Below are positions 4,182 to 56,030 of a DNA stretch of 64,000 nt, one piece after another. This DNA is from Ensifer sp. IC3342. GTDB taxonomy: Bacteria; Pseudomonadota; Alphaproteobacteria; Rhizobiales; Rhizobiaceae. A model generated the notes under the pieces. The model saw only the letters and a list, made by a program, of their open reading frames with translations, made no database searches and had not been told where the DNA came from. Location of the stretch: positions 806,001 to 870,000 of the forward strand of contig NZ_JADYVE010000001.1 in NCBI RefSeq assembly GCF_020193655.1. The letters are read 5' to 3'. Each line of letters opens with the position of its first letter. The first letter of the stretch is position 1. The position numbers and the translations under genes are program-made.

Positions 4182-4208
4182 CGGCGCGGCAACCACTTTT
4201 GACAGATT

Positions 4209-4389: not shown

Positions 4390-5679
<1,290 letters not shown>

Positions 5680-6048: not shown

Positions 6049-6179
6049 TGTTAAGTCTCGCGGCTGTTGCGCTCGTGCTCACACTTTCAGGCTTGTACTG
6101 GCGCGGCGCCTTGGTCCGTGAACGGCAGATCCCCATGGCGGTCGCAGCTGACCGGACAGCCGCTCGCGTCAAAAGATAA
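6048..6179 (+). CDS. 43-aa single-pass membrane microprotein, coupled to the upstream gene
   Basis: The ORF starts MLSLAAVALVLTLSGLYWRG and ends at TAA 6179. Its ATG overlaps the TGA of the 79-aa gene (TGATG at 6046-6050), typical of translational coupling. Residues 3-18 are a hydrophobic helix; the rest is short, basic and probably cytoplasmic (RXR-rich end, ...ARVKR). A terminator hairpin begins 5 bp after the stop, so the ORF fills the space between coupled start and terminator exactly. Function unknown. Confidence 0.6.
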   Translation: MLSLAAVALVLTLSGLYWRGALVRERQIPMAVAADRTAARVKR

Positions 6180-6183
6180 ATTC

Positions 6184-6207
6184 CCGGCCGACTGCGAAAT
6201 CGGCCGG
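6184..6207. terminator. Bidirectional terminator between small genes and LysR gene
   Basis: CCGGCCGA (6184-6191) pairs with TCGGCCGG (6200-6207). On the plus strand it is followed by CCATTCTTTG. On the minus strand it is followed by GAATTTATCTTTT, the better T-rich tail. It separates the convergent 43-aa gene and LysR-family gene and probably serves both. Confidence 0.7.
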
Positions 6208-6222
6208 CCATTCTTTGCCGTT

Positions 6223-7104: not shown

Positions 7105-7192
7105 AAATGAAAAACATATGGGAAATTAGGCTGTATGTAAAACAGTTTTGAGCGCATAAAAAAGGAGATGCCCGGAAACGAGGAGCATCACC

Positions 7193-7396
7193 ATGGACAT
7201 GATAGCAATGGCCGTTCTATTCGAGATGGCCTCAAGAAATCGCCGCTGGGACGAACCGTTCGAACCCCGACAGCCAAGCCGCACAAAGGACTTCGTGAAA
7301 GAGCTATTTGTTGCGCTCTTCCGCAGGCGACAGCCCGCGGAGACGCACGACTCGGCCGACACTTGGCCGGGTTTGTGCGCAAGCAGCATGAAATGA
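7193..7396 (+). CDS. Possible small protein (67 aa)
   Basis: ORF starting MDMIAMAVLFEMASRNRRWD, with a GAGGAG ribosome-binding site 7-8 bases before the ATG at 7193 and an AAGGAG further up. The N-terminus is a hydrophobic helix, followed by a basic middle with an FVKELFVALFRRR stretch. A perfect 12-bp hairpin begins 2 bases after the stop codon. Good start signal and good terminator favour a real gene, but no known family is recognised and the C-terminus looks uncommitted. Confidence 0.5.
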   Translation: MDMIAMAVLFEMASRNRRWDEPFEPRQPSRTKDFVKELFVALFRRRQPAETHDSADTWPGLCASSMK

Positions 7397-7398
7397 CG

Positions 7399-7425
7399 AC
7401 GCCGCGCATCTCTGATGCGCGGCGT
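7399..7425. terminator. Strong hairpin, probable bidirectional terminator
   Basis: ACGCCGCGCATC (7399-7410) and GATGCGCGGCGT (7414-7425) form a perfect 12-bp stem with a 3-base loop. It lies right after the 67-aa ORF and 54 bp downstream of the mcpZ stop codon. Both flanking tails are only moderately T-rich. Confidence 0.65.
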
Positions 7426-7478
7426 TCAATTCTTCGGTATCACACGGCGAGCCGCAGGACCCTTGACGTTGGTGTCCG

Positions 7479-10004
7479 CTACGCTGCGCGGTAGACCTGA
7501 CCGGAACCGGTCTCCGGCTCCAGCCGGAATTGCTCGACCAGCATCATCAGCGTATCCGCCTGGTTTGCGAGTGCGCGGCTGGTGGCCGTCGCCTCTTCGA
7601 CCATCGAAGCATTCTGCTGGGTCATCTGATCCATCTGGTTGACGGAGCCGTTGACCTCGTTCAGCGCCGCCGCCTGGTCGCGGCTTGCCGTTGCGATCAT
7701 TTCCACATGCTGGCTGACGGAAACGATCTGAGCGCTGATCGAGGCAAGCACTGCGCCGGTCTCCTTGACGAGATGGGAGCCGGAATTGACCTCCTCGGTC
7801 GACTTGTTGATGAGCCCCTTGATTTCCCGAGCCGCCTCGGCGGACCGCTGCGCCAGTTCCCGGACCTCCTGTGCCACCACGGCGAACCCCTTGCCCGCCT
7901 CTCCGGCACGTGCTGCTTCGATGCCGGCATTCAAGGCCAGAAGATTGGTCTGGAAGGCGATGTCGTCGATGACTTCGATGATCTGCTCGATCTGGCGCGA
8001 AGCCTCTTCGATGCGTCCCATCGCGGCGATGGCATTGGTGACGACGGTCGCCGAGCTGTCGGCGCTCTTCTTGGTCTGCGAAACGGCGAGGTTCGCCTCA
8101 TGGGCACGCTCTGCCGAGGAACGCACGGTCGCCGTGATCTGGTCTACCGCGGCCGCCGTCTCCTCGAGCGAGGCCGCCTGGGCTTCGGTGCGCTTGGAGA
8201 GCGAGTCGGCCGAATGATGCATGTCAGCACCGCTCTGCTGGATTGCCTGGGCGTTCATGCGGATCTGGGCGAGCGTATCCTGAAGCCGGATGAGCGATCC
8301 GTTGAAATCCGTCCGCAGCTGTTCGAGCCGACCGTGGAAGGGCACCTCGATCTGGCGCGAGAGATCGCCTTGCGCCAGGCGCCCGAGGCCGGCGGCGAGC
8401 TCGCTGACGGCAAGATCGATCTGCCGGTCCAGTTCGCGCTTCTCGGCGTCGTTGCGGCTGCGCTCTGCCTCGGCACGAGCGCGCTGCTCTTCGCTTTCCG
8501 CCTCGATGCGCACCTTGGAAAGGGCATTTTCCTTGAACACGCCGAGGGCACGCGCCATGTCGCCGATTTCGTCGCGCCGTGCGTCGCCGTCGATTGCCGT
8601 ATCGAGCATGCCGTCTGCAAGGCGGCGCATCGCGGCGGTGATCTGTCCGATCGGTTTCTTCAGCGTCAGCGTCAGCGCGATACCGGCGAGCAACGCGATG
8701 ATGACGCCGGCGACGGTCGCAGCAACGGAGATCTGGTTCGCTTCGTCTCGTTCGGTGCCGGCGGCGACTTTCTGCTGCTCGGCGAACTCGGTCAGATCGC
8801 CCCAGATCTGATTGATCGATTCACCGGCAGCATTGAACTCGGAATTGCGCTTGTCGGAGCTCGCGACCAGCGCAACACTATCTTTCTTCATCACGTTGAT
8901 GATCGGAAGAAGCGCGTCCGACGTGGTGTCGAAGAAACTCATCCCGTTCGCGACGCCGCGCAGCGTCGTCAAATTTGCCTGAACAGCAAGGAACTTATCC
9001 AGGAGCCGCTTGCGATTTTCCTCAGTCGTGCTGCCGAGGAAGGCGGCCGCGGCGATCTGTATGTCGGTGATGGACGTGGAAAGCCTGCGCGTCGCGGTCA
9101 GAACGGATTCGGTGCTTGCGATCTTTTCATCGAGTTCACTGAAGATCTGCGTGGCTTCGCGCATCTTGCCAACGGAGGCGGCTTCGAGCCGGAAGCTCGC
9201 GGTGCGGAAACGATCGACGTACTTCGATATGCTGCTGAGCGTTTCGGGTCCGACCGGTGCCTTGATCAGGGAGCCGATCTCGCTCGAGGCTGAATTCACA
9301 GTGTCGGCGAGGGATTTTTCGCCCTTCGGCAGCAAGGTGAAGATCTCGCGCTGCGTGCGGCCGATCATCGGGAAGCGATCCTTGACCTGCTTCAGCTTCT
9401 CTTCGACCGTGGTCGCCTTGGCGACCTCGGTTCCGAACTCCGCGAAGAAGCGGCTGGCGCGAAGGAGCTTTTCGGCGTTCCTGAGCATCGTCTTCGCGGC
9501 GTTCTCGTCCTTGCGCACGGCATATTGCAGCCGGTTCGTCTCTTCATTGATCTTCGACTGCTCGGCCACCAGGCGCTCCAGATTGGCCGTCGTAGCCGCG
9601 CGCAGCTCCTGTTCGCCGACATGCAGTGTCCAGAGCCCCTCGATACGCGCCTCGATATCGCTGGTCGCAGCGATCGCAGCGGTCAGCTCTTCCTGTCCGT
9701 TCTGGCCGGCGACCTGTGCGGCGGTCTCAGCGAGGATGTCCTTCTGCGAGGCGATCGTGGCGCGAACCGCATCGCGGGTTTCTTCGGTCGTCTTGTGCAG
9801 GAAATTGTTCATGCCCGCATAGACGTCCTTGAAGCCGCTCAGCGTTTGCAGGACGCTATTTGAAATCTCCATGCGCCCTTGCAGCAGGCCCGATGCGTAA
9901 AGGCCGGTGATGCCGACAGCCGAGATGCTGACGACAAACGGCAGGATGAAGAACAGAACCTTCGTCTGAATCTTGAAACGGGCAAGAATTCTATCGATGA
10001 ACAT
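7479..10004 (-). CDS. mcpZ: Methyl-accepting chemotaxis protein McpZ
   Basis: Chemoreceptor of 841 aa in the inner membrane. The first membrane helix is at about 16-38, followed by a very long, mainly helical periplasmic region of about 385 residues, and a second membrane helix at about 424-447. A HAMP domain follows (to about 500), with a second HAMP-like segment near 525-570. The signalling domain carries the hairpin tip IDDIAFQTNLLALNAGIEAA at about 681-705. The gene place (between aceA region and polyamine genes) and length fit S. meliloti McpZ, whose periplasmic domain is reported to have a novel fold. The ligand is not known from sequence. ATG 10004 was chosen because the upstream frame extension (to 10160) lacks family character. 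Confidence 0.92.
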   Translation of the reverse strand: MFIDRILARFKIQTKVLFFILPFVVSISAVGITGLYASGLLQGRMEISNSVLQTLSGFKDVYAGMNNFLHKTTEETRDAVRATIASQKDILAETAAQVAGQNGQEELTAAIAATSDIEARIEGLWTLHVGEQELRAATTANLERLVAEQSKINEETNRLQYAVRKDENAAKTMLRNAEKLLRASRFFAEFGTEVAKATTVEEKLKQVKDRFPMIGRTQREIFTLLPKGEKSLADTVNSASSEIGSLIKAPVGPETLSSISKYVDRFRTASFRLEAASVGKMREATQIFSELDEKIASTESVLTATRRLSTSITDIQIAAAAFLGSTTEENRKRLLDKFLAVQANLTTLRGVANGMSFFDTTSDALLPIINVMKKDSVALVASSDKRNSEFNAAGESINQIWGDLTEFAEQQKVAAGTERDEANQISVAATVAGVIIALLAGIALTLTLKKPIGQITAAMRRLADGMLDTAIDGDARRDEIGDMARALGVFKENALSKVRIEAESEEQRARAEAERSRNDAEKRELDRQIDLAVSELAAGLGRLAQGDLSRQIEVPFHGRLEQLRTDFNGSLIRLQDTLAQIRMNAQAIQQSGADMHHSADSLSKRTEAQAASLEETAAAVDQITATVRSSAERAHEANLAVSQTKKSADSSATVVTNAIAAMGRIEEASRQIEQIIEVIDDIAFQTNLLALNAGIEAARAGEAGKGFAVVAQEVRELAQRSAEAAREIKGLINKSTEEVNSGSHLVKETGAVLASISAQIVSVSQHVEMIATASRDQAAALNEVNGSVNQMDQMTQQNASMVEEATATSRALANQADTLMMLVEQFRLEPETGSGQVYRAA

Positions 10005-10407
10005 TGAAAACACCTTGGCTCGCAGCTCGCGTTTCGCTTCCCCCGATGGCGCGACGTACCGCCCCAAGCGATTGCTTGCGGAGGAACACGCCACCCGATG
10101 CGCAAACAGGCTGATGTTTTTCGGGAAATCATGCGGCGCACGCCGCCAGTCCGCCGGCAATCATTGCGGGGCCCGCGCCACCTCTCCAGGCGGCGAGGCC
10201 CTGACGGAACTCACTTGAGCGCAAGTGTCGATTTGAACGATTAAGATTTGTATAAGCGGCCGGCGGTTTTAGAGCGGTGATGGCGGCCAGGACGATTTTG
10301 CGACAACGGCCATGCGGTTTCGGCCGGATCACAGGCACCGCAATTCAAGTCAGGTGAAATCGGCTTCACCTGGAAGGCGCTTTCGTCTTCCTGATTTGCA
10401 CGCAGAT
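10005..10407. other. Intergenic region upstream of mcpZ
   Basis: About 400 bp between the mcpZ start and the stop of a minus-strand microprotein gene. The ORFs crossing it lack start signals or family resemblance. It should contain the mcpZ promoter; an A/T-rich patch at about 10230-10255 is the only candidate noticed. Confidence 0.35.
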
Positions 10408-10548
10408 TCAGAAAGTGGCGAACGTCGCGAATGTCACAACGAAAAAGAGAGCGATAACCGCACCGAAAGCAATCAGCTCGTGGTGCAAGTGGCTCTGCCC
10501 GGTGCGGGCAATCGCAACAGCGCGGGGACGGCGGCGTAAGTGGATCAT
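10408..10548 (-). CDS. 46-aa membrane microprotein
   Basis: ATG 10548 to TGA 10408 encodes 46 aa: a basic N-terminus (MIHLRRRPRAVAIAR), a short HLHHE linker, then one membrane helix at about residues 25-44 (LIAFGAVIALFFVVTFATF) running almost to the end. It follows the positive-inside rule as an N-in single-pass protein. Upstream is an AGGATAGGAT stretch that could act as ribosome-binding site. It lies in an otherwise empty 760-bp gap. Function unknown; the call rests on composition and start context only. Confidence 0.5.
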   Translation of the reverse strand: MIHLRRRPRAVAIARTGQSHLHHELIAFGAVIALFFVVTFATFATF

Positions 10549-10639
10549 GGCATCCTATCCTAGTCCTGGCTGGCAGCCGACCCGGCTACCCTGCACGTCA
10601 TGCTGCCTTCATCCTGCGGCCAGGGAAAGTCCATGAAAT

Positions 10640-10657
10640 GGAAACAGTGTGGTTTCC
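10640..10657 (-). terminator. Weak hairpin downstream of the flavoprotein gene
   Basis: GGAAAC (10640-10645) and GTTTCC (10652-10657) form a 6-bp stem. On the minus strand it is followed by ATTTC. It is about 110 bp after the stop of the HI0933-family gene and may end that transcript; the stem is short, so confidence is low. Confidence 0.3.
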
Positions 10658-10765
10658 GTTTAGGGACCGCCCCCAGTCCGGTGCAGGCCGTGCAGCCATA
10701 AATTCAGGTTCAGTCATTTCCGTTAACAATGGCTGAAAAGGCAAATCACCAATTTTTCCGCATGG

Positions 10766-11950
10766 TCACACCTCTTGACCGGCGGCGAAACCGGAAGCCC
10801 AGGCCCATTGAAAATTATAGCCGCCGAGCCACCCGGTGACATCGACGCACTCGCCGATGAAGTAGAGCCCCGGAGCTTCCCTCGCCTGCATAGAGCGGGA
10901 ATCGAGCGCACGGGTGTCGACCCCGCCGAGCGTGACTTCGGCGGTCCTGTAACCCTCTGACCCGGCGGGCTTCAGCGTCCAGTTCTGGATGGAAGCCGAC
11001 AGCGCATCGATGGCCTTGTCGGAAAGGTCGGCGAGCATCCGCCCCGCCAGCTTTGCTTCATCGGTAAAGAACTGCGCCAGCCGTCGCGGCAGTATGTCGG
11101 CCAGGGCCGTGTGCGCAGCCTGTCGACCGTTCGTTCGGCGCATTCCCTTGAGAATAGACGCGATATCGATATCCGGCATCAGCCGCAGGACAATCTCCGC
11201 GCCTTCACGCCAATAGGAGGAGACCTGCAGGATGGCGGGTCCGCTCAAGCCGCGGTGGGTGAGCAACACGGCTTCGCGAAAGGCGGCCTTGCCGCAGCGA
11301 GTCTCGGCATCGGCCGCGACGCCCGCCAGTTGGCCGATCTTTTCAAGTTGCGCCGGATCGAGCGTCAACGGAACCAGTGCCGGCCGCGTTTCGACGATCG
11401 GCAGACCAAACTGTTCCGCGACCCGATAGGCAAAACCCGTGGCCCCCATTTTCGGGATCGACTTGCCGCCGCTCGCAACGACCAGTGACATGGCCTCGAC
11501 GGGACCCCCATCCGTCGTCACGCGGAATCCAGATGCGACTTTCTCGATCGCCGAGATCGCCGTTGCCAGCCGGAGCATGACGCCCGCCTCCTGCATCTCG
11601 GCAATCAGCATGCGGATGATGTCCTTCGCCGAATGATCGCAGAAGAGCTGGCCAAGCGTCTTCTCGTGCCATGTGATGCCGTGCCGCTCGATGAGTGCCA
11701 CGAAGTCCTGCGGACGGTAGCGCGCCAGCGCCGACTTGCAGAAATGCGGATTTTCGGAGAGGAAGTTCTTCGGGCCGGCGTGGATATTGGTGAAGTTGCA
11801 GCGTCCGCCGCCGGATATGCGGATCTTCTCGCCGGGCGCCTTGGCGTGGTCGAGCACGAGCACACGGCGTCCGCGTTTTCCCGCCTCAATCGCGCACATC
11901 ATTCCGGCCGCACCTGCGCCGATGACCACCACATCGTATTTCTCTGCCAC
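10766..11950 (-). CDS. NAD(P)/FAD-dependent oxidoreductase, BaiN/HI0933 family
   Basis: Flavoprotein of 394 aa. The FAD-binding dinucleotide fold is at the N-terminus (GAGAAG at 11-16), followed by the family motif GEKIRISGGGRCNFTN (about 40-55). The C-terminal end ...GECVDVTGWLGGYNFQWAWA is also diagnostic (GE near the FAD, GGYN). The physiological substrate of these proteins in proteobacteria is unknown. I prefer the GTG at 11950: it is preceded by GAGGG and starts the fold at the right place; upstream codons extend the frame to 12115 without homology. Confidence 0.88.
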   Translation of the reverse strand: MAEKYDVVVIGAGAAGMMCAIEAGKRGRRVLVLDHAKAPGEKIRISGGGRCNFTNIHAGPKNFLSENPHFCKSALARYRPQDFVALIERHGITWHEKTLGQLFCDHSAKDIIRMLIAEMQEAGVMLRLATAISAIEKVASGFRVTTDGGPVEAMSLVVASGGKSIPKMGATGFAYRVAEQFGLPIVETRPALVPLTLDPAQLEKIGQLAGVAADAETRCGKAAFREAVLLTHRGLSGPAILQVSSYWREGAEIVLRLMPDIDIASILKGMRRTNGRQAAHTALADILPRRLAQFFTDEAKLAGRMLADLSDKAIDALSASIQNWTLKPAGSEGYRTAEVTLGGVDTRALDSRSMQAREAPGLYFIGECVDVTGWLGGYNFQWAWASGFAAGQEV

Positions 11951-13537: not shown

Positions 13538-14824
13538 ATGCCCTGGCAAAGTCCGATCTCGCCCGGAATCTCCTGGTACGAGGCGACGATACTGGAGCGT
13601 CCGGACTATCCAGCGCTGGCAGGCTCCCGAAAGACCGGCGTCGCCATCGTCGGCGGCGGCTACACGGGTCTTCAGGCCGCGTACAATCTCGCCAAGAACG
13701 GCGTCGACGTGACACTGATCGACGCGTGCCGGTTCGGCGACGGTGCCTCCGGCCGGAACGGTGGCCAGTTCGGCACCGGACAGCGCGCGTGGGCGGAGGA
13801 TACCGAGGAAACGCTGGGCCACGAGCGCGCCAAGCTGCTGTTCGAGATGGCGGAGAACGCCAAGCACCATCTCCTGAACTTCGCCGACGAACACGGAATC
13901 GACATCGAGTTCGTGCCCGGGCAGCTTTCCGTCGGCCACAAGAAAAGCCTTGAGAAAGACTACCGCCGCCATGTCGAGTCCATGGCGGAGCGTTTCGGAT
14001 ATCCGCACCTCTCTTTCATGGAACGGGACGAGACGGCAAACCGGCTCGGATCGCATCACTATCAGTTCGGCATACGCGACACCGGCACCGGGCACATCCA
14101 CCCGATGAAACTTCTCGTCGGTCTCGCAAGGCAGGCGGCCCGTGCCGGCGCCAGCCTCCACGAGCAGACGAAGGCGCTGAAGATCGAGAAAAGGGGGACC
14201 ACGATCGCCATCGACACCGATCGCGGTGCAATCACCGCAGACCGGGTGCTGATCGCCTGCAATGCCTATATCGGCAACCTTGAGCCTGTGACCGCCAGCC
14301 ACGTCATGCCGATCCGCTCGTTCATCGGCGCGACAAAGGTCCTGTCCGACCATCCGGACGTGCTGCCCGGCGGCGAATCGGTCGACGATTCGCGTTTCGT
14401 CGTGCGCTATTTCCGCAAATCGAAAGACGGACGGCTGCTCTTCGGCGGGCGCGAAGCCTATACGGCCGACAATCCACGTGACATTTCCAGCCACATCCGC
14501 CGCCAGATCAGCGAGATCTATCCGGCGCTCGCCAATGTCGAGATCACCCACGCCTGGGGAGGTTCGGTCGGCATCACCATGCCGCGCCAGCCCTTCTGCC
14601 GAGAGGTAATGCCTGGGGTTACAAGCATCGGCGGCTATTCCGGGCACGGCGTGATGTTGTCCAACTATTGCGGCAAGCTATATGCTGACTTGGTCTTGGG
14701 CAAACAGACGGAGCTGGATCTTCTCAAGGCCTTGAAAATACCTGCTTTCCCGGGCGGAATGCGATTCCGCTCGGCGCTCCTGTTCCTCGCGCTCAGCTGG
14801 TATGCATTGCGCGACCGGTTCTAA
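13538..14824 (+). CDS. puuB: FAD-dependent amine oxidoreductase, PuuB-like
   Basis: Flavoenzyme of 428 aa in the DAO family. The FAD motif GGGYTGL begins at about 39, and the GASGRNGGQFGTGQR segment (about 69-83) is typical of gamma-glutamylputrescine oxidases. It should oxidise the gamma-glutamylated amine made by the upstream GS-like enzyme, giving an aldehyde, ammonia and hydrogen peroxide. The two genes form an operon (15-bp gap) ending in a hairpin at 14823-14847. Confidence 0.85.
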   Translation: MPWQSPISPGISWYEATILERPDYPALAGSRKTGVAIVGGGYTGLQAAYNLAKNGVDVTLIDACRFGDGASGRNGGQFGTGQRAWAEDTEETLGHERAKLLFEMAENAKHHLLNFADEHGIDIEFVPGQLSVGHKKSLEKDYRRHVESMAERFGYPHLSFMERDETANRLGSHHYQFGIRDTGTGHIHPMKLLVGLARQAARAGASLHEQTKALKIEKRGTTIAIDTDRGAITADRVLIACNAYIGNLEPVTASHVMPIRSFIGATKVLSDHPDVLPGGESVDDSRFVVRYFRKSKDGRLLFGGREAYTADNPRDISSHIRRQISEIYPALANVEITHAWGGSVGITMPRQPFCREVMPGVTSIGGYSGHGVMLSNYCGKLYADLVLGKQTELDLLKALKIPAFPGGMRFRSALLFLALSWYALRDRF

Positions 14825-14850
14825 AATGCCGCGTGCAGGCGCATTTTGTT
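14823..14850 (+). terminator. Probable terminator after puuB
   Basis: AAAATGC (14823-14829) pairs with GCATTTT (14841-14847) around the puuB stop codon, followed by GTTGC. The stem is A/T-rich and the tail short, so this is a modest candidate that would separate puuB from zwf. Confidence 0.45.
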
Positions 14851-14921
14851 GCGCCGCACCCTAGCGTTTTTAAATCGATTAGATTATACCACCCCTGACC
14901 TGAACGAGATCGAGATATCCC

Positions 14922-16397
14922 ATGAGCAGCCAGATCATTCCCGTCGACCCGTTTGACTATGTGGTGTTCGGGGGCACCGGCGATCTTGCGGAGCGTAAGC
15001 TTCTGCCCGCGCTCTATCACCGGCAGATCGAAGGTCAATTCAGCGAGCCTACGCGAATCATCGGCGCATCACGCGCGGCACTGACCCACGAGGAATACCG
15101 GACGTTCGCGACCGACGCCTTGAAGGAGCATCTGAAACAGGGCGAATTCAACGAGGCGGAAGTGGCGAAATTCACCGCCCGGCTCTACTACGTGTCGGTC
15201 GACGCCAAGTCCGACCAGGGCTGGGACGAGCTCAAGAAAATCCTCGAAGAAGGAAAGGATCGCATCCGTGCCTTCTATCTCGCCGTCGGCCCGGCGATCT
15301 TCGGCGATATTTCGGAAAGAATTCGCGACCACAAGCTTATCACCAAGAACACCCGGATAGTCGTCGAGAAACCGATCGGACGCGACCTCGCCTCGGCGAC
15401 CGAACTCAACGACACGATCGGCAAGGTGTTCCGCGAAGAACAGATCTTCCGCATCGATCACTACCTCGGCAAGGAGACGGTGCAGAACCTTATGGCCCTG
15501 CGCTTTGCCAACGCGCTTTACGAGCCGCTGTGGAACTCGGCGCATATCGACCATGTGCAGATCACCGTTTCGGAATCCGTCGGCCTCGAAAACCGCGCCG
15601 GCTACTACGACAAGGCGGGTGCGCTGCGCGACATGGTACAGAACCACATTCTGCAGCTTGTCTGTTTCGTCGCCATGGAAGCCCCGACCTCGATGGACGC
15701 GGAGGCCGTGCGCGACGAAAAGCTTAAGGTACTTCGCGCACTGAAGCCGATCACCGCGGCCAATGTCGAGCAGGTGACGGTTCGCGGCCAGTATCGTGCC
15801 GGCGCATCCGCCGGCGGTCCGGTAAAGGGCTATCTCGAGGAGCTCGAAGGCGGCGTTTCCAACACCGAAACCTTCGTCGCGATCAAGGCCGAGGTCAGCA
15901 ACTGGCGCTGGGCCGGCGTACCCTTCTATATTCGCACGGGCAAGCGCATGGCGGGTCGCATGTCGGAGATCGTCATTACCTTCAAGCAGATTCCTCACTC
16001 GATCTTCGACCACGGCGCCGGGCGCATTTCGGCCAACCAACTGATGATCCGCCTGCAGCCGAACGAAGGCGTCAAGCAGTCGCTGATGATCAAGGATCCT
16101 GGTCCGGGCGGCATGCGGCTGCGCAATGTTCCACTCGACATGAGCTTCGCCGAGGCCTTCGCCGTGCGCAACGCCGACGCCTATGAGCGGCTGCTGCTCG
16201 ATGTGGTCCGCAACAACCAGACACTGTTCGTGCGCCGCGATGAGGTGGAAGCCGCATGGCACTGGGTCGACCCGATCCTTAAGGCCTGGGAGACAACCGG
16301 CCAGCAGGTGCAGGGCTATACGGCCGGCACCTGGGGTCCGAGTCAGTCGATCGCTCTGATCGAGCGCGACGGCCGCACCTGGAACGATACAATCTAG
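14922..16397 (+). CDS. zwf: Glucose-6-phosphate 1-dehydrogenase
   Basis: Oxidises glucose-6-phosphate to 6-phosphogluconolactone with NAD(P)+, the entry to the Entner-Doudoroff and pentose phosphate routes. The 491-aa product has the nucleotide-binding GGTGDLA at 17-23 and the active-site motif RIDHYLGKE at 177-185, both intact. It is followed 9 bp later by pgl, and then edd, a complete oxidative Entner-Doudoroff set except eda, typical of rhizobia, which use this path as the main sugar route. Confidence 0.97.
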   Translation: MSSQIIPVDPFDYVVFGGTGDLAERKLLPALYHRQIEGQFSEPTRIIGASRAALTHEEYRTFATDALKEHLKQGEFNEAEVAKFTARLYYVSVDAKSDQGWDELKKILEEGKDRIRAFYLAVGPAIFGDISERIRDHKLITKNTRIVVEKPIGRDLASATELNDTIGKVFREEQIFRIDHYLGKETVQNLMALRFANALYEPLWNSAHIDHVQITVSESVGLENRAGYYDKAGALRDMVQNHILQLVCFVAMEAPTSMDAEAVRDEKLKVLRALKPITAANVEQVTVRGQYRAGASAGGPVKGYLEELEGGVSNTETFVAIKAEVSNWRWAGVPFYIRTGKRMAGRMSEIVITFKQIPHSIFDHGAGRISANQLMIRLQPNEGVKQSLMIKDPGPGGMRLRNVPLDMSFAEAFAVRNADAYERLLLDVVRNNQTLFVRRDEVEAAWHWVDPILKAWETTGQQVQGYTAGTWGPSQSIALIERDGRTWNDTI

Positions 16398-16406
16398 GAC
16401 CGACCC

Positions 16407-17105
16407 ATGAGCGCTTCCCTGCACATATTCGAGAACGGGCCTGCATTGGCGGAGGGCCTCGCGGATGCGGTCAGCGCCAAGCTCGCCGCCGCGATTGTGG
16501 CCCGCGGCGCTGCGAGCATCGCAGTCTCCGGCGGAACGACGCCGAAGGCCTTCTTCCAGGCGCTGTCGCGGCGCGAGATCGACTGGACGAAGGTGACCGT
16601 CACCCTTGTCGACGAGCGGTTTGTTCCCGCGGAAAACGAACGCTCCAACCATGGGCTGGTCGCCGCCAATCTGCTGCAGAACAAGGCGAAGGCGGCCAAG
16701 TTCCTGCCGCTCTACAACGCAGCAGCCACAGCCGAGGACGCTGCAGCGATGGCGAGCCGGTCGGTTGCGGCGGTCGGCGCGCCCTTCGACGTGGTCGTTC
16801 TCGGAATGGGAACGGATGGGCACACCGCCTCGTTCTTCCCGGGAGGGACGCGTCTTAAAGAGGCGATTGATCCGGAGACGCCACGCGGCGTGATCACGAT
16901 GGAAGCGGATGGCGCGGGCGAGACGCGCCTGACATTTACCTTTTCCAGTCTTGAGGACGCCGGGCTACTCGTCCTGCATATCGAAGGCGACGGCAAGAAG
17001 GAGGTTCTTGCCCGGGCGGAAGCGCCCGGCGATGAGACGGAGATGCCGATCCGCGCCATGTTGCGGCGCGCAACATCGCCGCTGCAGATCTACTGGGCGC
17101 CGTAA
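16407..17105 (+). CDS. pgl: 6-phosphogluconolactonase
   Basis: Hydrolyses the lactone made by Zwf to 6-phosphogluconate in the cytosol. The 232-aa product has the DevB-type motifs: AVSGGTTPKAFFQAL near 31-45, VTLVDERFVP near 63-72, and VVLGMGTDGHTASFFPG near 130-146. It starts 9 bp after zwf and is co-transcribed with it. The 246 bp that follow up to edd show no gene. Confidence 0.95.
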   Translation: MSASLHIFENGPALAEGLADAVSAKLAAAIVARGAASIAVSGGTTPKAFFQALSRREIDWTKVTVTLVDERFVPAENERSNHGLVAANLLQNKAKAAKFLPLYNAAATAEDAAAMASRSVAAVGAPFDVVVLGMGTDGHTASFFPGGTRLKEAIDPETPRGVITMEADGAGETRLTFTFSSLEDAGLLVLHIEGDGKKEVLARAEAPGDETEMPIRAMLRRATSPLQIYWAP

Positions 17106-17351
17106 CAGGGGCGAGTGTCCCTTCGGGGAACGCCCGCGAAGGTAGATAGCGCCCCGAACCAGAGCTTTCCTTGCGCGTTCTCCCGAGCGCGCAGGTCGTG
17201 TTGAGTGATTTATCCTCATTTCGCGATCGAACCGAGGCTAGATTACGCAACAATTCAAGCTGTTACAGCCACCGATGCAGTGCCGCACGGCCGCTGTAGA
17301 CCGATGACAGGATGAAGACAGGAGCCCTCAAGCTCCGGAACAGGATGTATC

Positions 17352-19172
17352 ATGTCCGCCGATTCCCGCGTTACCGCCATCACCGCTCGCATCGTCGAGC
17401 GTTCAAAACCTAAGCGCGAAGCCTATCTCGATCGCGTGCGCAGCGCCGCAGCGAACGGGCCGCATCGCAGCGTGCTCGGCTGCGGCAACCTCGCACATGG
17501 GTTTGCCGTCTGTTCCCCCGCCGAGAAGACGGCGCTCGCGGGTGACCGCGTCCCCAATCTCGGCATCATTACCTCCTACAACGATATGCTCTCGGCGCAT
17601 CAGCCCTTCGAGACCTATCCGGCACTGATCCGGGAGGCGGCTCGCGAGGCGGGCGGCGTAGCCCAAGTCGCCGGCGGCGTGCCGGCGATGTGCGACGGCG
17701 TCACCCAGGGCCAGCCCGGCATGGAGCTGTCGCTCTTCTCGCGCGACCTGATCGCGATGGCCGCGGGCGTCGGGCTGTCGCACAACATGTTCGACTCCGC
17801 TGTCTATCTCGGCGTCTGCGACAAGATCGTCCCGGGCCTCGTTATCGCAGCGCTGACCTTCGGCCACCTGCCCGCGGTATTCATTCCCGCGGGACCGATG
17901 ACCTCGGGCCTGCCGAATGACGAGAAGGCCAAGGTCCGCCAGCTCTTCGCCGAGGGCAAGGTCGGTCGCGATGAGTTGCTCGAGGCGGAATCCAAGTCCT
18001 ATCACGGCCCCGGCACCTGCACCTTCTACGGCACCGCCAACTCCAATCAGATGCTGATGGAGATCATGGGCTTCCACATGCCCGGCGCCTCCTTCATCAA
18101 CCCCGGCACGCCTCTGCGTGACGCGCTGACGAAGGAAGCAGCCAAGCGGGCACTCGCGATCACCGCGCTCGGCAACGAATTCACCCCCGCCGGCGAGATG
18201 ATCGACGAACGATCGATCGTCAACGGCGTCGTCGGCCTGCACGCAACGGGCGGCTCGACCAACCACACCATGCATCTCGTGGCCATGGCGCGCGCCGCGG
18301 GCATCCTGCTCACTTGGCAGGACATCTCCGAACTTTCCGACATCGTACCGCTTCTGGCCCGCGTCTATCCGAACGGCCTTGCGGACGTGAACCATTTCCA
18401 CGCCGCCGGCGGCATGGGCTTCCTGATCGGTCAACTGCTCAAGAATGGCCTGTTGCACGATGACGTCAGGACGGTGTTCGGCCAAGGCCTCGACGCCTAT
18501 GCGATCGACGTCAAGCTCGGCGCCAACGGCGGTGTTCACCGCGAGCCGGCGCCGCAACAGAGCGCCGATCCGAAGGTGCTGACAACGATCGATCAGCCGT
18601 TCCAGCACACGGGCGGGCTAAAGATGCTCGCCGGCAATCTTGGCAAGGCGGTGATCAAGATTTCGGCCGTCAAACCGGATCGCCATGTCATCGAAGCACC
18701 GGCGAAGATCTTTCACGATCAGGCGGAGCTCAACGCCGCTTTCAAGGCGGGCAAGCTGGAGGGCGATTTCGTCGCCGTCGTCCGCTTCCAGGGTCCGAAA
18801 GCCAATGGCATGCCGGAACTGCACAAGCTGACGACCGTGCTCGGCATCCTGCAGGACCGTGGCCAGAAGGTTGCCATCTTGACCGACGGCCGCATGTCGG
18901 GCGCGTCCGGCAAGGTTCCGGCAGCGATCCATGTCACACCGGAAGCAAAGGACGGCGGGCCGATCGCTCGCATCCAGGAAGGCGACATCGTCCGCATCGA
19001 CGCGATTGCCGGAACGATAGAGGTCCTGGTCGAAGACATTGCGCTGAAAACGCGCGTGCCGGCCCAAATCGACCTCTCCGACAACGAATTCGGCATGGGC
19101 CGCGAGCTCTTCGCGCCGTTCCGCCGCATCGCTGGCGCGGCTGATCATGGGGCAAGCGTCCTCTTCCAGTGA
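17352..19172 (+). CDS. edd: Phosphogluconate dehydratase
   Basis: Iron-sulfur dehydratase of the Entner-Doudoroff pathway; it converts 6-phosphogluconate to KDPG. The 606-aa length is standard. The IlvD/Edd motifs are present: [28 protein letters not shown] with a cluster cysteine, and [18 protein letters not shown] near the C-terminus. The ATG follows an AGGATG site. It has its own 246-bp upstream region, so it may have a promoter besides that of zwf-pgl. Confidence 0.97.
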
Positions 19173-49344: not shown

Positions 49345-50316
49345 TTACTGCTGGAAGAGGCGCAGGATGTTCTCGGAGTTGGTGTTGGCGATCGACAGCG
49401 CCTGGATGCCGAGCTGCTGCTGCGTCTGCAGGGCCTTGAGCCGCGTCGATTCCTCGTTCATATCCGCATCGACCAAACGGCCGACGCCTTTGTCGATCAC
49501 GTCCATCAGGTTCGCGACAAAGCTCTCCTGCATGTCAATGCGGGTGGTGATCGCTCCGAGCGTGGAGGCGGAATCGGTGAGCTTGCTCAGCATCTTGTCG
49601 ACGACGCGGATCATGTCGTCCAACTGCGCGCTCGTCGTCGCAGCGGTCAGCTTGATCTCGGTGCTGCCAGCGACAGGCGTGGCTGGGGGCGCGACGATGA
49701 GGTGAAAAAGCCGCGCAGTACCCGACGGCGTCGCCTGCAATTGATCGGCGTCATAGCTGTTGGTCAGCAGACCGCGCGTGGCATCGGCCGTGTCGATCAG
49801 CATAGACTGCGCCGTATCGAAGTCGAGCGTCGTCACCGAGACATTTCCGTTGCCGCTGCGGTTGAAGGACGCGACGATCGACTTGGTCCCGACCGCAGCC
49901 GCGTTGGAATTATAAAGCCAGTTCTCGCCGGAGAACGATGCGGACTGCGCCGCGGATACGAGCTGGTTCTTGAGCTCGGTGATTTCCTTGTCGATCTTCA
50001 GCTTGTCGACGCCGGGCTCGCGCGCGGCAACGAGCTTCGCCTTGATCTCGCTGATGACGTCGATCGACGTGTCCATGGCGGCGTAAGCCGTATCGACCTT
50101 GGCGGCGCCGAGACCGAGCGCGTCCTGAACCGTCGAAAGGGCCGCATTGTCGGAGCGCATGGTCGTTGCGATCGACCAGTATGCCGCGTTGTCGCCTGCG
50201 GTCTGGACGCGGTAGCCGGACGAAATCCGGTTCTGCACGTCGGCCATGTTGCTGTTGATCGAACGCAATGTCTGGAGCGCCGCCATGGCGGCGGCATTGG
50301 TCATGATGCTGGTCAT
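49345..50316 (-). CDS. fla: Flagellin (divergent third copy)
   Basis: Flagellin of 323 aa. The N-terminal D0/D1 region (MTSIMTNAAAMAALQTLRSINSNMADVQNRISSGYRV) and C-terminal D1/D0 (LVDADMNEESTRLKALQTQQQLGIQALSIANTNSENILRLF) match the two other copies. The middle (about 165-245) differs and is longer. It ends in RLFQQ instead of SLFR. Filament subunit exported by the type III gate. The shared upstream motif at 50348-50389 suggests coordinate control. 303 bp separate it from the second copy, so it has its own promoter. Confidence 0.95.
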   Translation of the reverse strand: MTSIMTNAAAMAALQTLRSINSNMADVQNRISSGYRVQTAGDNAAYWSIATTMRSDNAALSTVQDALGLGAAKVDTAYAAMDTSIDVISEIKAKLVAAREPGVDKLKIDKEITELKNQLVSAAQSASFSGENWLYNSNAAAVGTKSIVASFNRSGNGNVSVTTLDFDTAQSMLIDTADATRGLLTNSYDADQLQATPSGTARLFHLIVAPPATPVAGSTEIKLTAATTSAQLDDMIRVVDKMLSKLTDSASTLGAITTRIDMQESFVANLMDVIDKGVGRLVDADMNEESTRLKALQTQQQLGIQALSIANTNSENILRLFQQ

Positions 50317-50619: not shown

Positions 50620-51561
50620 TTAACGGAACAGCGACAGGATGTTCTGCGAGTTGGTGTTGGCGATCGACAGCGACTGGATGCCGAGCTGCTGCTGCGTCTG
50701 CAACGCCTTTAAGCGAGTCGATTCCTCGTTCATGTCGGCATCGACCAGGCGCCCGACGCCCTTCTCGATCGAGTCCATAAGATCCGCGACGAAGTCATTC
50801 TGCATCGTGACGCGGCTGTTGAGCGCACCGAGATCGGAAGCTGCATCGGTCATGGTCAGCAGCGCTGCGTCGACGCCGGAAATGGCTTCGGCCAGATCGC
50901 CCGTCGTCATGCTGGTGATGTCGAGCTCGAGCAGGGCATAGGTGAGCGTTACGGTCGAGCCCGTTGCATCCGTGTATTCCAGATCGCTGGAGAGGAGACC
51001 CGTGCCGGTCGATACGTAGTTGCCGGACGAGTCCACTTCGATGAGCGAGCTTTTGGTCGTGTCGAACTGAAGCGTCGTGAGGCTGACATTGCCGTTCGCG
51101 TCGCGGTTGAATGAACCCACGATCGACTTGGTGCCGGCAACGTTGTTGTTGTCGTTGTAGACCCAGTTTTCGCCGGAGAACGAAGCGGACTTCGCAATGC
51201 TGATCAGCTGGTTCTGAAGTTCAGTGATTTCCTTCTGGATCTTGCCCTTGTCGACGCCCGGCTCAGAAGCGGCAACAAGCTTCGCCTTGATTTCGTCGAC
51301 GACATCGATCGAGGATTCCATCGCCGTGTAGGCGACGTCGGTCTTCGCGGCGCCGAGGCCGAGAGCATCCTGAACCGTCGAAAGCGCCTTGTTGTCCGAG
51401 CGCATCGTGGTCGCGATCGACCAGTAAGCGGCGTTGTCCGCGGCGGCGCCAACACGGTAGCCGGAGGAGACCCGGTCCTGCGTCGTTTCCATCGAGGAAT
51501 TGATCGAGCGCAGGGTTGCGAGCGCCGTCATTGCGGCGGTGTTCGTCATGATGCTTGTCAT
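50620..51561 (-). CDS. fla: Flagellin (second copy)
   Basis: Flagellin of 313 aa, about 94% identical by eye to the 51845-52786 copy; the changes lie mostly at the N-terminus (NTAAMTALATL) and a few scattered positions (DITSMTTGD, RVTMQND). Central domain NDNNNVAGTKSIVGSFNRDANGNVSLTTLQFD shared. A tandem duplicate, probably kept alike by gene conversion. Own terminator downstream and own upstream motif at 51601-51640. Confidence 0.96.
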   Translation of the reverse strand: MTSIMTNTAAMTALATLRSINSSMETTQDRVSSGYRVGAAADNAAYWSIATTMRSDNKALSTVQDALGLGAAKTDVAYTAMESSIDVVDEIKAKLVAASEPGVDKGKIQKEITELQNQLISIAKSASFSGENWVYNDNNNVAGTKSIVGSFNRDANGNVSLTTLQFDTTKSSLIEVDSSGNYVSTGTGLLSSDLEYTDATGSTVTLTYALLELDITSMTTGDLAEAISGVDAALLTMTDAASDLGALNSRVTMQNDFVADLMDSIEKGVGRLVDADMNEESTRLKALQTQQQLGIQSLSIANTNSQNILSLFR

Positions 51562-51844: not shown

Positions 51845-52786
51845 TTAGCGGAACAGCGACAGGATGTTCTGCGAGTTGCTGTTGGCGATCGACAGCGACT
51901 GGATACCGAGCTGCTGCTGCGTCTGCAGGGCCTTCAAGCGCGTCGATTCCTCATTCATGTCGGCATCGACGAGCTTGCCGACACCCTTCTCGATCGAGTC
52001 CATCAGATCAGCCACGAAGTCCTTCTGCATATCGACGCGGCTGTTGAGCGCACCGAGATCGGATGCGGCGTCTGTCATGGTCTGCAGGGCGGCATCGACA
52101 CCAGAGATGGCCTCGGCCAGGTCGCCCTCGGTCATGCTGCTGATATCGAGCTCGAGCAGGGCATAGGTGAGCGTTACGGTCGAGCCCGTTGCATCGGTGT
52201 ATTCCAGATCGCTGGAGAGGAGGCCCGTGCCGGTGGACACGTAGTTGCCGGACGAGTCGACTTCAATGAGCGAGCTCTTGGTCGTGTCGAACTGCAGCTG
52301 GGTCAAGCTGACATTGCCGTTGGCGTCGCGGTTGAACGAGCCGACGATCGACTTGGTGCCGGCAGCGTTGTTGTTGTCGTTGTAGACCCAGTTTTCGCCA
52401 GAGAACGAAGCGGACTTCGCGATGCTGACGAGCTGGTTCTGGAGTTCCGTGATTTCCTTCTGGATCTTACCCTTGTCGACGCCCGGCTCAGAGGCGGCAA
52501 CGAGCTTCGCCTTGATTTCGTCGACGACGTCGATCGAGGACTTCATCGCCGTGTAGGCAACGTCGGTCTTGGCGGCGCCGAGGCCGAGGGCATCCTGAAC
52601 GGTCGAAAGCGCCTTGTTGTCGGAACGCATCGTGGTCGCGATCGACCAGTAGGCGGCGTTGTCAGAAGCAGAACCAACGCGATAGCCGGAGGAGATGCGG
52701 TCCTGGGTCGTTTCCATGGAGGAATTGATCGAACGCAGGGTCGCAATAGCGGCCATTGCCGAAGAGTTCGTCATGATGCTGGTCAT
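51845..52786 (-). CDS. fla: Flagellin (first copy)
   Basis: Major-type flagellin of 313 aa. N-terminus MTSIMTNSSAMAAIATLRSINSS, C-terminus ...ALQTQQQLGIQSLSIANSNSQNILSLFR. Near-identical to the second copy. By position (first after fliP) it corresponds to flaA of S. meliloti, but it is about 80 residues shorter than the S. meliloti product as I remember it. ATG 52786 was chosen because every flagellin starts MTSIMTN there and AAGGGAC lies upstream. Central Ser/Thr-rich region (DSSGNYVSTGTGLL) offers possible O-glycosylation sites. Confidence 0.96.
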   Translation of the reverse strand: MTSIMTNSSAMAAIATLRSINSSMETTQDRISSGYRVGSASDNAAYWSIATTMRSDNKALSTVQDALGLGAAKTDVAYTAMKSSIDVVDEIKAKLVAASEPGVDKGKIQKEITELQNQLVSIAKSASFSGENWVYNDNNNAAGTKSIVGSFNRDANGNVSLTQLQFDTTKSSLIEVDSSGNYVSTGTGLLSSDLEYTDATGSTVTLTYALLELDISSMTEGDLAEAISGVDAALQTMTDAASDLGALNSRVDMQKDFVADLMDSIEKGVGKLVDADMNEESTRLKALQTQQQLGIQSLSIANSNSQNILSLFR

Positions 52787-52823
52787 ATGAGTTGTCCCTT
52801 TTTTTACTAGATACGGTTGGGGG

Positions 52824-52871
52824 ACATACCGGACTGCGTACACTACCGGTGATGACGGACCGGCTTCATGC
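52824..52871 (-). promoter_or_regulatory. Flagellin upstream motif, first copy
   Basis: On the minus strand GCATGAAGC (52871-52863) and CCGGTATGT (52832-52824), with ACCGGT between them. Conserved with the two other flagellin genes; here the inner spacing is about 8 bp longer. The lower block is 37 bp before the start codon. Confidence 0.55.
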
Positions 52872-53133
52872 CTCTCGGTTCCAACAAACATCCCTTGGAA
52901 GAAACCAAACCCGTCATGTGGAGACGAATATCGAGGCCAATGCTTGCGAATTCATTAAATGCGGGGGCCTGTTCCGGATGGCTCAACTCATGCTTAATAT
53001 ACGATTAAATGATTGACCTGATGCAGCTTTTTCTTTTGTACGCCAGCTCAGCAGCCGCGGCCTGAGGGCAGACCGACCAAGTCTTGGCGTCACGCCTGAG
53101 GCAAGGTCCAAGGGCGACAATGTTGCGTGAAAC
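52872..53133. other. Divergent spacer between first flagellin and GT41 gene
   Basis: This spacer lies between the flagellin upstream motif and the start of the plus-strand glycosyltransferase gene, within a 347-bp gap. A/T-rich words occur at about 52945-53040 and are a likely place for the promoter of the glycosyltransferase gene. The flagellin motif is not repeated in the plus orientation. Confidence 0.35.
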
Positions 53134-55116
53134 ATGTCGATCGAATCAGGACCGGAGCGGCTGAACGCCGGCCGTGGTCCGACCTATCCGACGGAGCCGC
53201 ACTTGAACGCGCATGCCCTCTTCACGACCGCCTCCCGGCAATATCAGAAAGGCCAGTACACCGAGGCCCTCAATCAGCTTAACCACCTGATGAACATCAG
53301 CCGGGAGACCAAGACATATGTCCTGTTGGCAAAGGTCCTCTTGAAACTCGGATTCAAGACCGACGCGGCGCGCGCCTATCAACTGGCGGGCGAGGAAAAG
53401 GGGGCGCGTTCGGAACATTATTTGACCGAAGCGATGAAGCTGCATTTTGCGTGCGGCAACGAGGATGAAGCCCTCAGCATCGGTCTTCCGCTTCTCGAAA
53501 AGGCGAAGACCGACCCGGACATCGCATTCATCATCGCATCCATCTTCTTGAAGCGGAACCAGAAGGAAATCCTCGGCCTGTTCAAGGCGCCGCTCTCCAC
53601 GAGCACCAACCTGCAGCACCAGATGCTCGCCTTCAAACTTTTGACGGCCGATGTGAACGACGCCCAGGATCGCGAGGTCGTTACCAACCTTTTCCGGAAG
53701 AATCCCAAGAGCAGCGTCCTGCGCTCAGCCTACCTCGTCTTCGCGCGCGAAGGCAATGACTACGCGGAAATCGAAAAATACGATACCGACATTCAGAGGG
53801 CGCTCAGTGCCGGCCGCTACGAGATTCTAACCCCGGAAGCCCCCTACTTCCACGTCACGTGGTGCGGAGACGAAAAGCTGAACCGGCTCGCCGGCGCTCG
53901 AAGCTGGCCAAACGCGGCGGCGATAACCGAAGCACGTCGGAACATGCCGCATACTTGGGGCGAGACGATTCGCGTCGGCTACCTGTCTTCGGATTTCTGG
54001 GACCAGCACGCGACGATGAAGCTACTGCAGGCCGTTCTGGAGCTGCATGATCGCGACCGATTCGAGATCACGCTGTTTTGCCACACGAAGGAAAGCAACT
54101 TCGCACGGGACGCGGGTGGCCGCGGAAGGTGGGGCAGAATCATACGCATTGACCAACTGTCCGACGCGCAAGCTGCCGAAGTCATACGTTCTGAGAACAT
54201 CGATGTGCTGGTGGATCTGAAGGGGCACACACTCGACCAGCGGATAGCGATCCTCAATCATCAGGCTGCGCCGATCCAGGCGTCTTGGCTGGGCTTTCCG
54301 GGCACAACGGTTAACCTGGATGCAGACTATATCATCGGCGATCCATACGTGTTGCGAGATGGAAGCGAACACAACTATTATGAGAAATTTTGCCGGCTGC
54401 CTGAAACCTACCAGCCGAACGACCCCTACAATCGTCCGCGTCCGAGGGGCATAACACGCGCGCAGCATGGGCTGCCTGCCGACGCCTTTATTTTTGCATC
54501 CTTCAACGCCAATCGAAAAATCTCACTGCAGACGATCAACCTTTGGATCGAGATCCTGCATCGCACTCCTGAAAGTCTTCTCTGGATCATGTGCGAGAGT
54601 CGGGAAGCGCGCGCCAACATTCTACGGAAGTTCCAGAGCAATGGTATCGCTTCCAACCGGATCGTATTCTGCGGCAAGGCGCTCTATCGCGATCACGTCG
54701 ATCGCTTGCCCCTCGCGAATCTCGGCCTCGACACCTACCCCTATAACGGCCACACGACCACATCGGAACAGCTCTGGGCAGGCCTTCCCGTGCTCACGTT
54801 CAAAGGTACCAACTTCGCTTCGCGTGTGAGCGAAAGCCTGCTCAACGCGATCGGGCTGCCGCAGCTTGTGACCGACGGCCCTGAGGCCTACGTCGCCGAA
54901 GCGGTCGCACTCTATGAGAACCGCGAGGAAATCGCCGAATACAGGAAGGCGCTCGAGGAAAGCCGCTTCCGCATGCCGCTGTTCGACGCGGAGCGCTTCT
55001 GCCGGCACCTCGAGCGCGCCTACGAGATGATGGTAGATCGCGCCAAGCAGAAGCTGCCGCCGGATCACATCGATGTTCCGGCGCTTCCGCCGCGCGATGG
55101 TTCCTTCGAGCGATAG
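53134..55116 (+). CDS. TPR / GT41 (O-GlcNAc transferase-like) protein, candidate flagellin glycosyltransferase
   Basis: Protein of 660 aa. The N-terminal third (about 25-230) is a helical TPR-like solenoid (ASRQYQKGQYTEALNQLNHLM, then AKVLLKLGFKTDAARAYQLAGE). The C-terminal two thirds are a complete GT41 catalytic domain: GYLSSDFWDQHATMKLL (H292, the presumed base), DVLVDLKGHTLDQRIAIL, QASWLGFPGTTVNLDADYIIGD, FASFNANRKISLQTINLWIEIL (K462) and ANLGLDTYPYNGHTTTSEQLWAG (D533). These match the catalytic His/Lys/Asp of OGT. It is the only plus-strand gene in the flagellar block, between fliP and three flagellin genes. Caulobacter FlmG (TPR plus glycosyltransferase) modifies flagellin in the same manner; this is inferred here. 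No strong ribosome-binding site was seen. Confidence 0.88.
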   Translation: MSIESGPERLNAGRGPTYPTEPHLNAHALFTTASRQYQKGQYTEALNQLNHLMNISRETKTYVLLAKVLLKLGFKTDAARAYQLAGEEKGARSEHYLTEAMKLHFACGNEDEALSIGLPLLEKAKTDPDIAFIIASIFLKRNQKEILGLFKAPLSTSTNLQHQMLAFKLLTADVNDAQDREVVTNLFRKNPKSSVLRSAYLVFAREGNDYAEIEKYDTDIQRALSAGRYEILTPEAPYFHVTWCGDEKLNRLAGARSWPNAAAITEARRNMPHTWGETIRVGYLSSDFWDQHATMKLLQAVLELHDRDRFEITLFCHTKESNFARDAGGRGRWGRIIRIDQLSDAQAAEVIRSENIDVLVDLKGHTLDQRIAILNHQAAPIQASWLGFPGTTVNLDADYIIGDPYVLRDGSEHNYYEKFCRLPETYQPNDPYNRPRPRGITRAQHGLPADAFIFASFNANRKISLQTINLWIEILHRTPESLLWIMCESREARANILRKFQSNGIASNRIVFCGKALYRDHVDRLPLANLGLDTYPYNGHTTTSEQLWAGLPVLTFKGTNFASRVSESLLNAIGLPQLVTDGPEAYVAEAVALYENREEIAEYRKALEESRFRMPLFDAERFCRHLERAYEMMVDRAKQKLPPDHIDVPALPPRDGSFER

Positions 55117-55292: not shown

Positions 55293-56030
55293 TCAGGTGA
55301 AAGACCGCACAAGGCTGCCGACGAGGAGGTTCCAGCCGTCGATCAGCACAAAGAAGAGGATCTTGAATGGCAGCGAGATCGCAGTTGGCGGCAGCATCAT
55401 CATGCCCATCGCCATGGTAATGGTCGCGACGATCAGGTCGATCACCAGGAACGGCAGCATGATCAGGAAGCCGATTTCAAAGCCGCGACGGATCTCCGAG
55501 ATCATGAAGGCCGGCACGACGGCCCTGAGATCGACCTTGTCTTCGACCACGACGGCCTGTCCCTTCTCCGTGGCGATGTCGATGAAGAGCTGCAGGTCCT
55601 TGTCGCGCGTGTTGGCAAGCATGAACTCGCGAAAGGGCTCCGCCACCCGCTGCATCGCCTCGGTTTCCGAGATCTCGTTGTCGAGCAGCGGATCTATGCC
55701 TTCGCGCCAGGCGCGGTCGAAGGTCGGCGCCATCACGTAGAAGGTCATGAACAGGGCGAGCGACACCATGATCATGTTGGACGGCGTGGTTGCCAGCCCC
55801 ATGCCCGACCGCAGGATTGCGAAGGCGATGACGAAGCGCGGGAAACTCGTCACCATGATCAGAATGCCTGGTGCCACCGACAGAACAGTGATGAGGCCGA
55901 AGGTGCGGATAATCCACGATGCAACGGAACCGTCGACCGGCGTGTTCAGAATATCGGCGGGAAAACTCTGCGCCCCGGCAATTCCCGACATCGCCATCAT
56001 GGCGATTATGAATGCAGCAATCCGGAGCAT
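55293..56030 (-). CDS. fliP: Flagellar export protein FliP
   Basis: Export-gate protein of 245 aa. Signal peptide about 1-20, then helices near 40-80, 185-215 and 215-240. The FliP signature is present: LSVAPGILIMVTSFPRFVIAFAILR and FMISEIRRGFEIGFLIMLPFLVIDLIVATITMAMGMMMLPP. It is the last gene of the flgF-to-fliP run and 49 bp after fliL; the export operon fliQ-flhA-fliR lies 18 kb away. Confidence 0.96.
   Translation of the reverse strand: MLRIAAFIIAMMAMSGIAGAQSFPADILNTPVDGSVASWIIRTFGLITVLSVAPGILIMVTSFPRFVIAFAILRSGMGLATTPSNMIMVSLALFMTFYVMAPTFDRAWREGIDPLLDNEISETEAMQRVAEPFREFMLANTRDKDLQLFIDIATEKGQAVVVEDKVDLRAVVPAFMISEIRRGFEIGFLIMLPFLVIDLIVATITMAMGMMMLPPTAISLPFKILFFVLIDGWNLLVGSLVRSFT

Follow-up and report, generated by a model that had tools for sequence, protein, structure and literature searches.

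Within the 64,000-nucleotide stretch of Ensifer sp. IC3342 DNA analysed here (the window), we identified a glycosyltransferase gene (53134..55116, plus strand; 660 residues, intact open reading frame, ORF) in a flagellar gene block. Its domain matches and predicted fold combine a tetratricopeptide repeat (TPR)-like part with a catalytic domain of glycosyltransferase family 41 (GT41). On sequence grounds, it is a well-supported candidate flagellin O-glycosyltransferase of a NeuB-independent TPR-GT41 type, and part of the Rhizobiaceae has conserved it. All the family-matched genes of the block lie on the minus strand (bacterial export family 1, FHIPEP, FlgK, FlgE, a response regulator, FliK, MotB, the flagellins, FliP, FliL, FlgH, FlgI, FliE and FliI), and the plus-strand glycosyltransferase gene diverges from three flagellin genes, as a first-pass annotation of this DNA had described. 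The three flagellins, the presumed acceptors, were assigned by family match: flagellin 1 (51845..52786, minus strand; 313 residues, start set by homology), flagellin 2 (50620..51561, minus strand; 313 residues) and flagellin 3 (49345..50316, minus strand; 323 residues). Locus comparison delimits a 347-bp intergenic region (52787..53133) from which flagellin 1 and the glycosyltransferase gene diverge, while fliP (55293..56030, minus strand; family match) is the neighbour on the far side. The glycosyltransferase gene stands alone between flagellin 1 and fliP in the window, with no modification island.

The catalytic domain (residues 278-649; 53965..55080, plus strand) matched the GT41 model PF13844 at 217 bits, against a cut-off of 25, and the gene is the only one with such a match in the 7.42-Mb window genome. 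The TPR part (residues 21-232; 53194..53829, plus strand) gave only a sub-threshold match by sequence (ANAPC3) and is an alpha-helical solenoid in the AlphaFold model; by analogy with FlmG of Caulobacter, it is presumably the acceptor-binding part. In structure comparison, the predicted fold resembles OGT-type enzymes along the whole chain, and by fold the protein has the two-part design of the FlmG class, with an N-terminal TPR part and a C-terminal GT-B part. The PF13844 match, the fold and the alignment thus bear out the first-pass description of an OGT-type catalytic domain with H292, K462 and D533 behind a TPR-like region. A family scan of the protein found no match to a methyltransferase domain. 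The ratio of nonsynonymous to synonymous substitution (dN/dS) is ~0.07-0.14 in five comparisons with relatives (NG86), and the gene is under purifying selection.

GTDB contigs were scanned for exact peptide patterns, an approach that recovers only close relatives, and 28 homologous loci were obtained. Sinorhizobium terangae, Ensifer adhaerens and Ensifer sesbaniae are among the carriers of the gene. A flagellin adjoins the gene in 18 of these, which are exactly the loci matching at ≥52% over ≥630 residues, and fliP lies on the opposite side in 17 of the 18. No adjoining flagellin was found in the remaining ten, in which the best segment matches at 43-52%; nine are partial-query matches and two are cut near the gene by contig ends. 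In a search across the Rhizobiaceae, 50 of 297 genomes matched at E 1e-90, and 60 regions were retrieved, chiefly for the highest-ranking matches and leaving out some weaker places (e.g. in genome G274); some genomes are shared with the 28-locus set. Among the first 40 regions, a flagellin is adjacent in 18, one (L094) is cut on the flagellin side, and L100 and 20 more have none, as do all of the last 20 (0/20). The flagellin neighbour is kept at seven loci where fliP does not adjoin the gene (L042, L103-L108). Because the flagellin-linked members span at least eight genus codes (g1, g18, g30, g47, g54, g71, g92 and g97), the gene is not an acquisition of Sinorhizobium only, and the lineage-specific acquisition proposed by the first-pass annotation is not supported.

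We placed these proteins in a FastTree phylogeny of 124 GT41 sequences, which carries long-branch warnings. Near-copies (L013-L017, L019-L024, L037, L039, L040, L092, L095, L102, L145, L146, L177 and L086-L089), class-level rows (L159, L246-L249, L251, L254 and L256) and ORFs of ≤480 residues were omitted. The Rhizobiaceae copies form one group of 87 rows (support 100), outside which fall two outlying genus copies at 36% (L018 and L025). One clade of 33 rows (support 100), the window protein included, holds every Rhizobiaceae flagellin-linked row in the tree; its exceptions are L100, in which a flagellin was not seen, and L094, labelled as linked by its fliP side only, the contig stopping before the flagellin side. 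ORFs are 636-710 residues long in all rows of this clade. Since a single supported clade contains at least eight genus codes, the flagellin link would most simply have arisen once in the Rhizobiaceae, before Sinorhizobium. Homologues away from flagellins and beside another partner, which had been put forward as an argument against a flagellin role, are confined to sister clades (33-52% identity); of the 33 rows that make up the orthologous clade, one is unlinked and one is cut by a contig end.

Among the recurrent neighbours of the non-flagellar copies are zinc-uptake genes, or sugar ABC transporters with a phosphodiester glycosidase. The zinc-uptake genes (ZnuA, ABC-3) adjoin the copies in L111, L116, L121, L127, L129 and others, with no evident substrate, and two to four tandem Rhizobiaceae-family GT41 copies lie away from flagellins in L050, L136, L141, L147 and L151. 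In other alphaproteobacterial families, other GT41 genes have flagellin or FlbT neighbours (L177/L245, L191/L257, L188/L244 and L193/L243), linkage at this level being judged mostly from 1.5-kb flanks, which miss more distant flagellins. The flagellin label requires six changes on the tree, of which at least five are forced by well-supported branches (in a FastTree topology with long branches). Three proteins beside a flagellin or FlbT (L244, L243 and L257) have a SPINDLY-like motif, with Gly at 540, Glu at 545 and no His, and the best PDB match of L257 is SPINDLY; these are possible candidates for flagellin O-fucosyltransferases.

The genus sample comprised 33 genomes, including the window genome, and fliP was found in 32, giving 32 fliP loci for comparison (the window and L055-L085). 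A copy of the window gene at 80-100% identity is present in 12 of the 33 genomes; in 14 others the sole match is to the catalytic domain, at 35-38% and located elsewhere, and seven have none. Of the 32 loci, 12 have the gene in the interval from flagellin 1 to fliP and 20 lack it; two of the latter (L060 and L077) end at contig ends, yet have flagellin sequence adjoining fliP. These absences may reflect loss of the gene, a replacement that took in the flagellins as well, or transfer of a cassette. No genome has both the window GT41 (12 of 33) and the second GT41 of the genus (14 of 33), so that the two are mutually exclusive.

Several further features of these arrays were observed. More than 4 kb of extra DNA separates the flagellin genes at 5178 and 10690 of L058 (genome G004). 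Two opposite-strand flagellin genes lie within the flagellin array of L106 (11415-13474), where the GT41 neighbour is retained, and the array of Ensifer adhaerens L18 contains a shortened flagellin (L033, 4664-5479; a 271-residue ORF, 256 residues from an MTS-type start). In L088, from a gene-less Sinorhizobium, a different GT41 (8781-10883) lies between two giant ALTTAQ-repeat proteins (3080-8143, minus strand, and 13819-18998, plus strand) with 49 and 51 repeats (PF20080), and ORFs of like size, judged by size alone, flank the GT41 of L086. If a Thr-containing repeat protein of this kind is the substrate of the adjoining GT41, the two would form a second candidate pair of enzyme and substrate.

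We compared the ancestry of the flagellins with that of their surroundings, using all 12 carriers, 18 of the 20 non-carriers (two contig-cut loci being omitted), seven Ensifer-type loci and eight other chosen loci, one of which has too few flanking genes. In a tree of six flanking proteins, carrier and non-carrier Sinorhizobium fall together (support 87, not strong), separate from Ensifer (99). A tree built from 153 flagellins instead places those of carriers with Ensifer (support 96 and 97), and flagellins 1/2 take this position with a support of 100 in 66 chosen rows of the 153, for which grouping with gene-less congeners is rejected by the approximately unbiased (AU) test (p 3.9e-11). Because the carrier flagellins group with Ensifer and the flanks with congeners, the gene and its flagellins have apparently been inherited as a unit, a pattern with which loss, replacement and transfer are all compatible, and in which hidden flagellin paralogy is possible.

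The flagellin-linked clade is also distinguished by its active site. H292, K462, R524, D533, H540, T541 and T542 are invariant in all 33 rows, and H292 and K462, the catalytic/UDP-binding His and Lys, align with human OGT. The donor-pocket motif YPYNGHTTTSE (residues 535-545; 54736..54768, plus strand) ends in E545, which is diagnostic of the clade by alignment: all 33 clade rows have Glu at position 545, whereas Asp stands there in 52 of the 54 remaining Rhizobiaceae rows and in 27 of the 30 GT41 rows from elsewhere in the Alphaproteobacteria. Position 537 varies within the clade (Y 18, V 12, C 3). The window protein shares the TPR and GT41 design and the conserved His and Lys with human OGT and Arabidopsis SPINDLY, but its motif (LDTYPYNGHTTTSE) combines residues of both (LDTPLCNGHTTGMD in human OGT, LDTFPYAGTTTTCE in SPINDLY). 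R524 occupies the position that we take to be the uracil-contacting Arg of OGT; the SPINDLY residue at this point, counted without gaps from the LDT motif, is Ala. Since the window protein keeps R524, the donor is probably a UDP-sugar, with no commitment to GlcNAc. The bacterial enzymes XcOGT (2vsn/2jlb) and TtOGT (5djs) differ from the window protein in being ~25% identical to it, and we know of no flagellar link for either.

A GT41 enzyme with a TPR-like front half, a strong and old flagellin linkage and purifying selection together make flagellin modification the likeliest role of the gene. We consider it likely that the product is a soluble cytoplasmic TPR-GT41 flagellin O-glycosyltransferase. 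The N-terminal helical solenoid would bind the flagellins encoded next door. With a common nucleotide sugar as donor (most likely UDP-linked, for instance UDP-GlcNAc or a related compound), the GT-B domain would attach a single sugar to Ser/Thr residues of the exposed central part of the flagellin, in the cytoplasm and prior to export. Gene and flagellins tend to pass on together as a single cassette. The first-pass annotation had likewise proposed modification of flagellin Ser/Thr in the cytoplasm before export; of this, flagellin modification stands as the likeliest role by context, and we infer the acceptor, the O-linkage, the donor and the timing, along with any effect on motility.

A different chemistry would follow if the protein were an orthologue of Caulobacter FlmG that modifies flagellins with pseudaminic acid or some other nonulosonic acid. 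FlmG of Caulobacter crescentus binds flagellins through its TPR part and requires pseudaminic acid for their glycosylation (PMC7591256). The window protein has in common with it the two-part design, the flagellin neighbourhood and, presumably, modification before export, which is established for FlmG; the two differ in that a search of the window genome (115 contigs, 100% complete) gave no match to NeuB (PF03102). NeuB occurs in 11 of the 33 genus genomes, but in just two of the 12 carriers, leaving ten unmatched. In a further test of 36 genomes (20 + 4 + 4 + 8), it was found in four of 20 other Rhizobiaceae of the flagellin-linked clade, once 93 kb from the gene and otherwise on other contigs, the other 16 being unmatched; in all four FlmG-like genomes, ~3-11 kb from the GT41 gene; in one of four other flagellin- or FlbT-linked genomes; and in four of eight genomes with non-flagellar copies. 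FlmG-like loci were defined by a weak PF13844 match with a flagellin and/or FlbT no more than ~8 kb away (L241, L250, L253 and L255; FlbT only in L250, and L241 below the PF13844 cut-off in Pfam's own scan). They are equated with FlmG by synteny only, taking Caulobacter flmG to have the same surroundings, and serve as stand-ins for the Caulobacter sequence; Caulobacter vibrioides, as a control, has a PF13844 match. These stand-ins form a separate deep group in the GT41 tree (on long branches), together with L242, a second weak GT41 of genome G417 without an adjoining flagellin or FlbT, and in a loose alignment they lack equivalents of K462 and H540. The window protein does not look like a FlmG orthologue, and its being one is very unlikely; the FlmG parallel drawn by the first-pass annotation is supported neither as homology nor as chemistry.

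The substrate is not named by context alone, and the enzyme could modify another flagellar or regulatory protein, or regulate flagellin synthesis in the manner of Listeria GmaR, described as a bifunctional enzyme and anti-repressor; yet the link that persists is to flagellins and not to fliP, and the gene tracks flagellin type, making such a role unlikely. Transfer of a hexose to Asn in flagellin N-X-S/T sequons, as by an HMW1C-like N-glycosyltransferase, is very unlikely: both structure and sequence are nearer to O-transferases (21-28% identity, versus 15-16% for N-glycosyltransferases, among the matches listed), and long flagellins have more sequons in non-carriers (2.5) than in carriers (1.8). 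That the gene is missing at 20 of the 32 genus fliP loci would suit a hitchhiking or decaying gene with no flagellar role, but the uniform clade ORF lengths, the low dN/dS and the invariant active-site residues leave this highly improbable.

Flagellin length does not follow the gene. ORFs at gene-carrying loci range from ~290 to >420 residues, including 391-437 residues in carriers elsewhere (L101, L109 and L110; mechanical starts), and non-carriers of the genus have flagellins of both 298-338 and 389-401 residues, the 395-401-residue group being presumably S. meliloti-like. We accordingly rejected a contrast of short flagellins in carriers with long ones in non-carriers, both groups containing both lengths, and the replaced filament architecture suggested by the first-pass annotation is not supported. 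An acceptor-site signature from Ser/Thr and sequon counts was also dropped, as group differences were inconsistent and such counts ignore relatedness; alignment columns in which carriers from two groups, but seldom non-carriers, show Ser/Thr had no reverse control and were not used as proof.

Several observations weigh against the proposed flagellin O-glycosyltransferase and its inheritance as a cassette. L100, a row of the clade, has no flagellin within the 13.3 kb examined, and most genomes are without the gene, both in the genus (12 of 33 carry it) and in the family, even with sister copies included in the 50 of 297 matches. The rejection for flagellins 1/2 owes something to the diversity of the non-carrier flagellins, which themselves fall into several types, while grouping of flagellin 3 with non-carrier congeners is not rejected (AU p 0.134), nor is carrier-Ensifer grouping of the flanking genes (AU p 0.296). 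Ser/Thr enrichment in flagellin centres is weak for short flagellins (0.28 versus 0.23-0.24), near nil for flagellin 3 (0.24 versus 0.22) and reversed for long flagellins (0.21). The donor pocket is mixed, H540 and R524 being OGT-like and Y537 and E545 SPINDLY-like; a Tyr at the Y537 position is argued to narrow the pocket, and bacterial OGTs that have it are reported with poor or no O-GlcNAc activity (PMC9715652). Finally, we found no glycosylation measurement in the literature for a known carrier of the gene.

Flagellins of Rhizobium leguminosarum stain as glycoproteins (PMC2936354), and filaments of Agrobacterium sp. H13-3 are said to be glycosylated, with data not shown (PMC8310070). In our searches of open-access literature, which mostly excludes subscription papers, we found no paper on the window gene and none naming an enzyme for rhizobial flagellin glycosylation. 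Enterobacterial flagellin islands are reported to hold eleven GT41 transferases (PMC4875605). These SPINDLY-domain enzymes resemble the present one in adjoining flagellin genes, but are described as lying in islands and mostly bearing methyltransferase domains, whereas here a lone gene encodes a helical solenoid, a contrast drawn from the published description. GT41 at flagellin loci is thus already known from enterobacteria, and the NeuB-independent, lone rhizobial TPR-GT41 is a new variant.

More broadly, and tentatively, since we hold it to be somewhat doubtful, TPR-GT41 enzymes may have been recruited repeatedly and independently to alphaproteobacterial flagellin loci with at least two donor chemistries (FlmG-like and NeuB-linked, or OGT-like and NeuB-independent), and in the Rhizobiaceae the enzyme and its matched flagellins may move between species as a surface-antigen cassette. 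If so, closely related symbionts would show plants and phages differently glycosylated or unglycosylated flagella. The gene offers a concrete single-gene candidate for rhizobial flagellin glycosylation, with carriers, mostly without NeuB, and non-carriers in one genus and a diagnostic residue. OGT-type transfer to a bacterial flagellin would become directly testable, with a bearing on how plants recognise flagella and on the phages that bind them.
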